Source: Natrinema halophilum (lineage in GTDB: Archaea; Halobacteriota; Halobacteria; Halobacteriales; Natrialbaceae). From it: a DNA stretch of 64,000 bases. Below the pieces are notes generated by a model that saw only the letters and a list, made by a program, of their open reading frames with translations, made no database searches and was not told where the DNA came from. A program made the translations under genes and the position numbers. Location: contig NZ_CP058601.1 of assembly GCF_013402815.2 (NCBI RefSeq), positions 248,001 to 312,000 on the forward strand, in the 5' to 3' direction. Positions 40,431 through 45,236 of the stretch are shown here, piece by piece; position 1 is the first letter of the stretch; the number at the start of each line of letters is the position of its first letter.

Positions 40431-41678
40431 CTACTCGTAGAGTGGGTTTTCTTCGCACAGGACCGCGACTTCCTCGCGGACGTCTCCGATGACGGCCTCG
40501 TCGTCGGGGCTGTCGACGACGCGAGCGATTAGATCACCGACTCTGCGGCAGTCGTCCTCGTCGAAGCCGCGCGTGGTCAGTCCCGGAGTGCCGGCCCGAA
40601 TGCCGCTGGGATTGAACGCCGAGCGCGTTTCGCCGGGTACAGTGTTCCCGTTGAGAACGATACCGGCGTCCTCGAGGGCTTCCTCGGCGTCGCCGCCGGT
40701 CGTATCCGGATGGCTGTCGCGGAGGTCGACGAGGACGAGGTGGTTGTCCGTCCCGCCGGAGACGAGCGAAAACCCGTTCTCGATAAGGGACTCGCCCAGC
40801 GCTTTCGCGTTTGCGACGACCTGTTCGGCGTAGTCTTCGAACGCCGGCTCGAGGGCTTCCTTGAAGCCGACGGCCTTTCCGGCGATGTTGTGCATGAGGG
40901 GACCGCCCTGTCCGCCGGGGAAAACGGCGGCGTCGATGTCATCGGCGTGCTCCTCGCTCGTCATGACGATACCACCGCGACCCGAGCGGATGGTCTTGTG
41001 GGTCGAACCGGTAACGAAGTCGGCGACGCCGACCGGTGACGGGTGGACGTCCGCGGCGACGAGCCCAGTGATGTGGGCGATGTCCGCCAGGTGGAATGCA
41101 TCGACGTCGTTCGCGACCGTCTGTATGCGCTCCCACTCGATTTCGCGGGGGTACGCCGAGTAACCCGAGACGATGATGTCGGGGTCGAACTCGGCGGCGT
41201 GATCGGCCAGTGCCTCGTAGTCGACGTATCCTGTCTCGGGGTCGACTTCGTACTGCTCGACTTCGTAGAGCTGCCCGGTAAAGTTAGCTGGATGGCCATG
41301 GCTCAGGTGACCACCGTGGGTGAGGTCGAGCGAGAGGACCTTATCGCCCGGCTCGAGCATCGCGAAGTAGACGGCCTGATTCGCCTGCGTGCCCGAGTGG
41401 GGCTGGACGTTGATGTGTTCGGCACCGAACAGCTCTGTCGCACGGTCGATCGCGAGTTGCTCGACTTCGTCGGCGTACTCACAGCCGCCGTAGTAGCGCT
41501 CGCCGGGATATCCTTCCGCGTACTTGTTCGTGAGGGCGCTCCCCTGTGCGTCGAGGACGGCCTCGCTCACGTGGTTTTCACTGGCGATCATCTGCAGCGT
41601 CTCTCGCTGACGGTCTACTTCGCCCTCGAGTGCGTCGGCGACGGCGGGATCGACCTCGCGAACCTGGTCGTGGTCCAT
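40431..41678 (-). CDS. glyA: Serine hydroxymethyltransferase
   Basis: 415 residues. It converts serine and tetrahydrofolate to glycine and methylene-THF with PLP. Landmarks are MIASENHVSEAVLDAQGS, GYPGERYYGGCEYAD, HSGTQANQAVYFA, HGGHLSHGHP, DIAHITGLVAA, and the PLP lysine in TGSTHKTIRSGRGG (Lys228). Start at 41678, 23-32 bp downstream of a TATA box. Divergent from the CHAT-domain gene with 162 bp between starts. Confidence 0.97.
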   Translation of the reverse strand: MDHDQVREVDPAVADALEGEVDRQRETLQMIASENHVSEAVLDAQGSALTNKYAEGYPGERYYGGCEYADEVEQLAIDRATELFGAEHINVQPHSGTQANQAVYFAMLEPGDKVLSLDLTHGGHLSHGHPANFTGQLYEVEQYEVDPETGYVDYEALADHAAEFDPDIIVSGYSAYPREIEWERIQTVANDVDAFHLADIAHITGLVAADVHPSPVGVADFVTGSTHKTIRSGRGGIVMTSEEHADDIDAAVFPGGQGGPLMHNIAGKAVGFKEALEPAFEDYAEQVVANAKALGESLIENGFSLVSGGTDNHLVLVDLRDSHPDTTGGDAEEALEDAGIVLNGNTVPGETRSAFNPSGIRAGTPGLTTRGFDEDDCRRVGDLIARVVDSPDDEAVIGDVREEVAVLCEENPLYE

Positions 41679-41700
41679 ATCCGATGTGCGGACTGGCGAC

Positions 41701-41710
41701 TGTATAAGTG
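41701..41710 (-). promoter_or_regulatory. TATA box of glyA
   Basis: Minus-strand CACTTATACA, 23-32 bp before the start at 41678. Confidence 0.65.
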
Positions 41711-41840
41711 TACCCTTCCCCGGCAAGTCGAGCCACTATCGAGGGTCGTGAAGCGGGCCCGTCGCCACTCGGCGACTTCGAACACCATCCGATCACGGCC
41801 CGATACAACTAACTTGTCGGAGTGACATTCAACCAACTGA

Positions 41841-43985
41841 ATGATAGAGTGGGTGGTAGAGGGCGATACTCTCTACGTCACCGACGCCGACAACGCCGAG
41901 TTGGCGGTCGAGGGTGACGAATTCGATATCGAAGACAGTGACGTCGATATTCCGCGCGCAGTCGACGACACACTCGTCGTCACGACGAACGAACTTCGAT
42001 TTCCCCACGCGGTCGTTTATGCGTTCTCGCTCGGTCTCGAAGACCAGTACGAACTCGACCCCAGCGGGGAGCCACTCTCGTTATCGCCCGGTGAGTACGT
42101 CGTCGACGTCGACACGGATATCAAAGCCTATCTCCGGTTTTCGGGTGGGGCGACGATCGAGAAGACCGACGATTACGAGGAGATCATCGTCTCCTTTCCG
42201 ACCAGGACTCGCGTCGTCCTCGGCGTCCGATGTCGTCACGAGTTCCCCGCCGGAACCATTACCGTTCCCGATCGCCCGTCTGCGATGGCTGACGCCATTA
42301 CACACATGACCGCGTCCCACAAGACCAACGGGCCCGACCGCTCATATCCCACGCTACGGGGCCATCCGTCGCTACTCGAACACGGCGACGTACTCGACAT
42401 TCCCGACTGCATCAGTGCCGACGTCCCCGACAACGGGCCCGAACTAATCGTCCCGCCGGACTACGAATCACTGTTCGTTACGGCCCCCCTCGCGTACTAC
42501 CTCCAGACGACGGTGCGGACGACCGACGACGAACTCGGCAATCGTCCCGGTTCCGCGCCCGATGGGCCGCGACTTCGACTCCCCGATCGTGGGATCGACG
42601 AACCGCTCTCAACGATGCCTGACCTGGAGCGCGACGTCGAACGACTGCTTCGAAAGACGTTGTTCCTCGATTGCCTCGTTCGCAACGCCGGCCCGTACGG
42701 GACGAACCTCTCGGAACTCAGCCTTCTCAAAGCCCTCGATCTCGACGCCGAAACGCTGTACAACGCTACTCCGCAGGACCGACTCGCGACGTACCTCGAC
42801 GTTCCCTTCGCGGCCATCAAACATCGGCTCCCCGACTGGCACCTTTCGACGTACGTCAAGCCGACGTACGACAGCATCGAAACGCTCCCGTTCCTGCTCG
42901 ACCGAATGAGCATGATCTATACGCCACGAACTTCCAAACTCGAAGGACGGGAACTGGTCGAACGGTCGCTCGAAGATTTCTATCGAGGTCCCGGTTCCGA
43001 TTCCCCGGACGAAACTGATCCGCTGTCCAACTCGGGGAGAGCCACCGGTCAGGTCGCCTCCGTCGACATCGTCAAACCAGAACTCCGAACCGGTCGCACC
43101 CACGGCTGGCTCGCAGAGGACGTTCCGATAGACGTCTTCAAATCCGCCCCCGAAGCCTACCACAACCGCCTCGACTTTCTCGAGCGGGCCAGCGACTCGA
43201 CGTCGATCTGCGTCGTGCTGAACGATCCGGAGATGGCGGGCGAACACGACCACGTCGCGGATATTTACCGCCAACGGTCAGAAGAGGTCTCGATCGACGT
43301 TACCGTCGAGGAGTCGCTCGAAACGGCAGCGCTCGCTCGCGTCTTCGAATCTGACCACGACTTCGTTCACTACATCGGTCACTGCGAGACCGACGGACTG
43401 TGCTGTCCCGACGGAACGCTCTCGGCTTCGAGTCTCGACCACTGCAACGTACAGACGTTTTTTTTGAACGCCTGTGGCTCCTTCTACGAGGGGAAAAAAC
43501 TGATCGAGAAGGGGAGCGTCGCTGGCGCGGTGACGTTCACCAAGGTCCTGAACGACCACGCCATCAAGGTCGGCTCGACGTTCGCCAAACTACTCGTCCA
43601 CGGATTCAGCATCGAACGCGCGATGGGCCTCGCGCGCAGGCGTATCATGATGGGAAAAGACTACGCAGTCGTCGGCGACGGGACCCACTCCCTTACGCAG
43701 GGCAAAAGTCGACTGCCGACGACTGCGACGCTCGAAGAACTCGATGGAGACGGAGACGAGCGACAGTACCTGCTCACATTCGACTGTTATTCGACGCGCG
43801 TAACCGGATCGTATTACTTTCCACATACCGAGACCAACGAGTACGCCTACCTCTGTGGGAACGAGTCGAGTTTTACGCTGTCGGAGACGGAACTGGCGAC
43901 CATGCTCAAAGAAACGGAAGCGTCGGTGATCTACGATGGCGATCTCTACTGGTCGAAAGAGCTGTGGTCCCGGTTCGATCGCTAA
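41841..43985 (+). CDS. CHAT-domain (caspase-like) protein
   Basis: 714 residues, no signal peptide or membrane helix. The C-terminal part (about 450-640) has the CHAT peptidase layout: strand DFVHYIGHC with candidate catalytic His514, then LDHCNVQTFFLNACGS with candidate nucleophile Cys545, then EKGSVAGAVTFTKVLND and FAKLLVHGFSIERAMGLARR, the helix after the active site. The region 1-400 has a beta-rich start (about 1-130) and a helical middle (PDLERDVERLLRKTLFLDCL...), not recognised. In other prokaryotes CHAT proteins are death or defence proteases activated by partners; no partner is obvious here. A run of eight T at 43458-43465 precedes the Cys codon. Monocistronic by spacing; divergent from glyA. 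Confidence 0.8.
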   Translation: MIEWVVEGDTLYVTDADNAELAVEGDEFDIEDSDVDIPRAVDDTLVVTTNELRFPHAVVYAFSLGLEDQYELDPSGEPLSLSPGEYVVDVDTDIKAYLRFSGGATIEKTDDYEEIIVSFPTRTRVVLGVRCRHEFPAGTITVPDRPSAMADAITHMTASHKTNGPDRSYPTLRGHPSLLEHGDVLDIPDCISADVPDNGPELIVPPDYESLFVTAPLAYYLQTTVRTTDDELGNRPGSAPDGPRLRLPDRGIDEPLSTMPDLERDVERLLRKTLFLDCLVRNAGPYGTNLSELSLLKALDLDAETLYNATPQDRLATYLDVPFAAIKHRLPDWHLSTYVKPTYDSIETLPFLLDRMSMIYTPRTSKLEGRELVERSLEDFYRGPGSDSPDETDPLSNSGRATGQVASVDIVKPELRTGRTHGWLAEDVPIDVFKSAPEAYHNRLDFLERASDSTSICVVLNDPEMAGEHDHVADIYRQRSEEVSIDVTVEESLETAALARVFESDHDFVHYIGHCETDGLCCPDGTLSASSLDHCNVQTFFLNACGSFYEGKKLIEKGSVAGAVTFTKVLNDHAIKVGSTFAKLLVHGFSIERAMGLARRRIMMGKDYAVVGDGTHSLTQGKSRLPTTATLEELDGDGDERQYLLTFDCYSTRVTGSYYFPHTETNEYAYLCGNESSFTLSETELATMLKETEASVIYDGDLYWSKELWSRFDR

Positions 43986-44417: not shown

Positions 44418-45236
44418 ATGGCTTCGAATTTACTCAACCACCAGATTGACGATATACTCGAGGCAGTTCTCGAGGATGCAACCGGCGACGTATACATGGT
44501 CAACCCCTCCCGAGATGCGATCGAAGAGTTCATTTCGGTCGCGACAGCGTTCGACGGCGAGTTGCCGTCCGTACACATGCTCGCCGACGAACGAACCCTC
44601 AAAGAGGTTATGGACGACTTCATCGTCGCTTCGAACGCGGCCGACCTCATCAGCGAGGACGTTCTCGTGTTACGAACCCTTTCCGAGGCGCCCGAGAATT
44701 CGCTCCTGATTACCGAGGATCGGATCGTCGCAGTCGTTCACGCCGGCGACCGTGTCGGCGGACTCATCACGGACGACGATAGTTTCGTCGAGGACACCTA
44801 TGATACGTACGCAGCACGCTGGGAGGACGCGAGCGACTTCAACCTCCGGACCCCTCCGATCACGAACGTTCGCGAAACGCTGTCCGACGAAATCAGTCCG
44901 TCGGCCGAGGAGGACTTCACCGCGATTCTGAACTCCCTCGAAACCGCGCGGGGCGACGGCGATGGACTCGACGAAGTCACGATTTCGTTGCTCGTTGCAG
45001 CCAAGAATCAGGCACTGCTGTACGATATCAGCAAGTGGGGGGAGGACGTCGGAATCGCCTCGAAAGCGACATTCTCGCGGACGAAGACGAAACTCGAGGA
45101 TATGGGGTTGATCGACACCGAGAAAGTCCCGATCGACGTTGGCCGCCCGCGGCTGCGACTGAAAATCGGCGACGATAGATTGAGTGAAGCGGACAACGGG
45201 CAACTCGCGACTGTTGCACAGAGCATCCTCAACTGA
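44418..45236 (+). CDS. tbsP: Transcriptional regulator TbsP
   Basis: 272 residues, a match to the haloarchaeal DUF5821/TbsP family. The N-terminal NLLNHQIDDILEAVLEDATGDVYMVNPS is the family opening. The middle has LLITEDRIVAVVHAGDRVGGL. The C-terminal winged helix (about 180-260) reads VTISLLVAAKNQALLYDISKW then GEDVGIASKATFSRTKTKLED. In Haloferax TbsP acts with TrmB on gluconeogenic gapII; a similar metabolic role is likely. Start at 44418 agrees with the AT-rich promoter upstream; the longer frame from 44277 is not used. Confidence 0.88.
   Translation: MASNLLNHQIDDILEAVLEDATGDVYMVNPSRDAIEEFISVATAFDGELPSVHMLADERTLKEVMDDFIVASNAADLISEDVLVLRTLSEAPENSLLITEDRIVAVVHAGDRVGGLITDDDSFVEDTYDTYAARWEDASDFNLRTPPITNVRETLSDEISPSAEEDFTAILNSLETARGDGDGLDEVTISLLVAAKNQALLYDISKWGEDVGIASKATFSRTKTKLEDMGLIDTEKVPIDVGRPRLRLKIGDDRLSEADNGQLATVAQSILN

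Follow-up and report, generated by a model that had tools for sequence, protein, structure and literature searches.

The gene at positions 41841 to 43985 of the window, the 64,000-nucleotide stretch of Natrinema halophilum DNA analyzed here, probably codes for an active, regulated cysteine endopeptidase of the CHAT branch of clan CD, with a predicted conserved housekeeping or signaling job in haloarchaea. This interpretation is favored because the modeled protein adopts a caspase fold with an invariant His/Cys dyad, because selection is strongest in the CHAT domain, and because the gene carries a promoter-like block and belongs to a family that is nearly universal in these organisms. The gene, its parts and the related loci are listed in Table 1.

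Table 1. Coordinates of the CHAT-fold protein gene, its predicted parts, its neighbors and related genes at other loci.
Feature	Locus	Positions	Strand	Evidence
Gene for the 714-aa CHAT-fold protein (haloarchaeal family, group A)	Window	41841..43985	+	ORF, homologs, dN/dS
N-terminal beta-sandwich, residues 1-142	Window	41841..42266	+	Model of residues 1-445
Alpha/beta middle region, residues 143-440, possibly in part a pseudo-caspase half	Window	42267..43160	+	Models and structural alignments
Predicted clan-CD (CHAT) catalytic domain, residues 441-625	Window	43161..43715	+	Foldseek, VIA, Pfam CHAT in relatives
His514 codon, predicted catalytic base	Window	43380..43382	+	Invariance and strand 508-512
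Cys545 codon, predicted nucleophile	Window	43473..43475	+	Invariance and strand 539-543
C-terminal small beta/alpha domain, residues 626-714	Window	43716..43982	+	Model secondary structure; dN/dS 0.05-0.25
glyA (serine hydroxymethyltransferase), divergent neighbor	Window	40431..41726	-	Pfam SHMT 8.7e-152
tbsP transcription regulator, downstream neighbor	Window	44418..45236	+	Pfam TbsP_N and HTH_TbsP_C
Conserved probable BRE/TATA promoter block CCCGATACAACTAACTT	Window	41799..41815	+	Aligned upstream regions
Intact CHAT paralog in host genome	L171	8095-10173	-	
Intact CHAT paralog in host genome	L172	8146-10239	+	
Degenerate paralog	L144	6918-8624	-	
Degenerate paralog	L146	6893-8998	-	
DUF7504 (PF24336) gene preceding a group B CHAT gene by 50-100 nt	L140	9788-10492	-	
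DUF7504 (PF24336) gene preceding a group B CHAT gene by 50-100 nt	L171	10276-11055	-	

The ORF begins with an ATG codon, comprises 714 codons, and is under strong purifying selection. Comparison with six related copies gave dN/dS values of 0.08-0.23 overall, with the lowest values (0.02-0.14) in the CHAT domain. These values, together with homologs in 365 of the 391 haloarchaeal genomes sampled, establish the ORF as the genuine gene that it was first taken to be. Furthermore, the conserved upstream block CCCGATACAACTAACTT supports the conclusion that the gene is real and probably has its own promoter. Most Natrialbaceae copies keep this block with unchanged spacing to the start codon, and other families often have a more typical BRE/TATA-like string at that position. 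The block occurs once in the window against an expectation of 0.05, and its 14-base core has one exact copy genome-wide. A near-copy of the block is located elsewhere in the genome (G000:C1:453167-453180).

A full-length structure was predicted using an alignment of 68 relatives as input, and the resulting model has a pLDDT of 86.4 and a pTM of 0.87. A Foldseek search of the PDB returned SAVED-CHAT (8tl0) as the top match (E 6.8e-8), followed by separase and gingipain R. Alignments with VIA gave a Z-score of 18.4 to SAVED-CHAT (2.3 Å over 170 residues, 450-620), 18.2 to gingipain R (RgpB; 242 residues, 333-659), 17.1 to separase, 12-14 to Craspase, and about 11-12 to caspase-7 and legumain. 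In clan-CD enzymes, the His and Cys of the dyad sit directly after consecutive core strands. Likewise, His514 in the model directly follows strand 508-512 and Cys545 directly follows strand 539-543, and these are consecutive core strands, which places both residues at the predicted dyad positions of a caspase fold. The motif YIGHC begins at residue 511 and NACGS at residue 543, confirming the residue numbering. The spacing of 31 between the two residues lies between the values for human separase (2003/2029) and the TPR-CHAT protein of Craspase (585/627) (PMC9729208).

The dyad is also preserved by evolution. Neither residue varies among the 79 group A orthologs aligned, in the two paralogs of the host genome, or among the 29 members of a second, overlapping ortholog set. 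The original prediction had placed a caspase-like CHAT fold with an intact His/Cys pair in the C-terminal part of the protein. The Foldseek and VIA matches to SAVED-CHAT, the location of each residue after a core strand in the predicted model, and the absence of free variation at either position all agree with that proposal.

Comparison with known systems reveals both shared and distinct features. SAVED-CHAT has the same catalytic domain fold, but its match is limited to the region noted above, the 440 N-terminal residues of the window protein differ, and the window protein is the product of a core chromosomal gene. No Pfam match to a SAVED domain was found in the protein, and no CRISPR neighborhood was found at the locus. 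Separase shares the fold, aligns into the region preceding the active domain, and has a similarly short His-Cys spacing. However, the two proteins are only 13% identical, the window protein lacks separase-like helical repeats, and the Asp residue that binds the P1 Arg in separase appears by eye to be replaced by Asn571. Members of the family carry Asn, Asp or Glu at this by-eye equivalent position, and therefore cleavage specificity cannot be predicted from it. Gingipain R (Peptidase C25) appears by eye to share a GD motif after the last core strand, but it is a secreted virulence protease with 8% identity to the window protein. The TPR-CHAT protein (Csx29) of Craspase shares the CHAT domain and the His-Cys dyad. 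No TPR repeats were detected in the window protein by Pfam at E<=10, and its N-terminus is instead formed by a beta-sandwich and an alpha/beta region. Genes for Cas7-11 (gRAMP), Csx30 and Csx31 are not present beside the gene, and no gasdermin gene is adjacent, as the adjoining genes are glyA and tbsP.

Membership in CHAT is not apparent from the window protein alone, which has no match in Pfam (none at E<=10), NCBIfam, PADLOC or PHROGs. PDB sequence searches with the single protein or a profile gave chance matches only, as did NCBIfam searches over 68 members. However, Pfam CHAT (PF12770) is matched by 26 of 68 relatives at E<=1, with a best value of 1.9e-5. One distant haloarchaeal homolog (L165) scores 37 bits against this profile, where the curated cut-off is 24, and it aligns with residues 92-708 of the window protein at 32% identity (E 1e-84). 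Assignment of the window protein to the CHAT branch of clan CD thus rests on homology through such intermediates and on the modeled structure, with its caspase-hemoglobinase fold and its dyad after the core strands. When used as a survey probe, PF12770 missed nearly all members of the family. Among 25 plasmid-borne relatives, NCBI annotates two as 'caspase family protein' or 'CHAT domain-containing protein' and most others as hypothetical. We conclude that this is a mostly unannotated clan-CD family that is missed by standard databases.

The region preceding the catalytic domain is less readily classified. Residues 1-142 exhibit a weak likeness to galactose-mutarotase/supersandwich folds, for which the best VIA match is borderline (3dcd; Z 9.0, 3.1 Å, 125 residues). 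Given that the N-terminal model alone gave weak matches, no function is assigned to it. The separase, gingipain and Craspase alignments reach upstream of the active domain to residues ~200-333, as might be expected for a pseudo-caspase half, yet the N-terminal part modeled alone gave no caspase match in structural searches. The model includes a low-confidence stretch at residues 376-406.

Members of the family were identified in 93% of the haloarchaeal genomes and in 78 of 86 genera. The window protein belongs to group A, a clade with 100/100 support that includes eight named families. A second group in the tree, group B, carries the motifs HYIGHI and NACQS. Outside the class, sampling of 247 genomes across the phylum uncovered a diverged version in one other family. 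In that family, the diverged relatives at loci L175-L178 (genomes G438, G429, G420 and G411) adjoin UPF0146, acetyltransferase and Toprim genes. Three of these retain His and Cys, and the fourth (L176) has lost His, Cys or both and kept the N-terminal half. As a point against the preferred reading, group A is dispensable, because neither Haloferax nor one Natrialbaceae genome with an intact glyA-tbsP junction (G137) has it. The protein, described at the outset as stand-alone, is not isolated but belongs to a widespread family with paralogs, degenerate copies and distant relatives.

The original prediction also viewed the protein in the context of death and defense systems. A defense or cell-death effector would kill or stall the cell upon sensing a virus, as do gasdermin-linked CHATs, SAVED-CHAT and Craspase. 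The closest solved structure is indeed the SAVED-CHAT protein of an antiviral system, paralogs are carried on megaplasmids of several genera, and some genomes have three or four copies. However, defense genes are usually patchy in distribution and island-borne, whereas this gene is core, present at a single site, and vertically inherited at a fixed position among core genes, in a family found throughout most of the class. Moreover, dN/dS is low, PADLOC gave no significant match, and no family member was found on viral contigs. We therefore consider a defense role unlikely for this gene.

Another explanation is that the caspase fold serves as a scaffold, or pseudo-enzyme, that binds and does not cleave. 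Degenerate paralogs at L144, L146, L157 (two copies) and L159 still have the N-terminal half but lack His, Cys or both, suggesting that non-catalytic uses of the fold exist in the family. The same copies demonstrate that the two residues are free to disappear when they are not needed, whereas group A retains both without exception and shows its strongest constraint in the catalytic domain. This makes a purely binding function quite improbable for the window protein. The two degenerate genes at L157 are arranged in tandem, and a diverged TbsP-like gene (27-29% identity) is located within a few kb of the degenerate copies in L144 and L146. The two additional intact CHAT paralogs in the host genome (L171 and L172) are ~29-35% identical to the window protein.

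Pfam matches to SHMT, TbsP_N and HTH_TbsP_C confirm that the neighbors are glyA and tbsP, as originally proposed. Of 78 group A loci, 76 have glyA nearby and 74 have tbsP, whereas only 36 retain the genes further downstream. The CHAT gene resides in a vertically inherited junction of core genes. The linkage with tbsP was evaluated as a strong functional signal and then downgraded, because glyA and tbsP also stand as direct divergent neighbors in genomes that lack group A, among them those of Haloferax and G137. Adjacency of this kind makes the linkage weak evidence for a partner. A dedicated module, with the metabolic regulator TbsP as either the substrate or the controller of the protease, is very unlikely. 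In its favor, tbsP is directly downstream on the same strand at most loci and across eight named families, and there are CHAT-type proteins in other systems that target transcription regulators (Csx30/sigma, PMC10028731; the anti-sigma factor DdvA is also among the structural matches identified with VIA). However, TbsP is present in 192 of 194 genomes regardless, its junction with glyA exists without the CHAT gene, and the CHAT-tbsP gap of 39-844 nt (median 408) means that the two usually do not form an operon.

Returning to the preferred reading of a regulated endopeptidase, residues 1-440 may function as a sensor or regulatory module, by analogy to the N-terminal regions of Csx29 and SAVED-CHAT, and would hold the protease inactive as long as no ligand or partner binds. 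Binding would then release the CHAT domain for limited cleavage of one regulatory protein or a few of them. In group B, the DUF7504 protein encoded just upstream would be the likely partner of the paralog, whereas TbsP would be no more than a positional partner candidate for the window protein. A haloarchaeal CHAT protease system had been raised as a possibility at the outset. The fold and the intact dyad of that proposal stand, and such a protease system is inferred to exist.

The partner proposed for group B is suggested by gene order. Each of 15 Haloferax genomes, whose genus was assigned via a 99% match to an H. larsenii plasmid, carries exactly one family member with intact motifs. In all 15, a gene on the same strand that is assigned to DUF7504 by Pfam PF24336 ends about 50 nt upstream of the CHAT gene. 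A DUF7504 gene is also located 102 nt upstream of the group B paralog in the host genome. Across loci L140, L171 and L192-L206, DUF7504 genes precede the group B CHAT genes by 50-100 nt. DUF7504 has a weak PAXNEB match, which suggests a possible RecA/KaiC-like fold. It is possible that DUF7504 proteins activate group B CHAT proteins, and they offer a better partner lead than glyA or tbsP, albeit one that lies upstream of a paralogous gene and not of the window gene. Homology between TbsP and DUF7504 was rejected by profile comparison (probability 0.1). In some other genera, a sensor kinase or response-regulator gene adjoins the group B gene, and the Haloferax copy has a HalX regulator gene close by.

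The single Haloferax copy is relevant to an earlier biochemical observation. Very high caspase-like activity that is sensitive to zVAD-FMK has been reported for Haloferax, Halorubrum and Haloarcula, and in H. volcanii extracts it is dominant, with inhibition of up to 95% (PMC3615174). The authors of that study described archaeal genomes as lacking clear caspase-type homologs and called for identification of the responsible protein (PMC3615174). Among the papers searched, none mentions both a CHAT domain and Haloferax or haloarchaea. The CHAT family is the sole clan-CD candidate found in Haloferax, as searches for Peptidase C14, C25 and C11 found none in the 15 genomes, with the C25 result a weak silence given that this search was matchless in control genomes as well. 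Caspases have a basic S1 residue for Asp, whereas the predicted S1 region of the window protein, judged by eye, has Asn571. Because of this difference, and because Pyrococcus and Sulfolobus are reported to show the same activity and the authors named the proteasome as another possible source (PMC3615174), the proposal that the CHAT family is the enzyme behind haloarchaeal caspase-like activity, with the DUF7504-associated copy responsible in Haloferax, is possible but doubtful.

With one gene per Haloferax genome, the role of this gene in caspase-like activity is testable by a single deletion. If the proposal is true, the archaeal caspase-fold protease would be a housekeeping stress enzyme, and the family would add a core, non-defense role to those of CHAT proteases.
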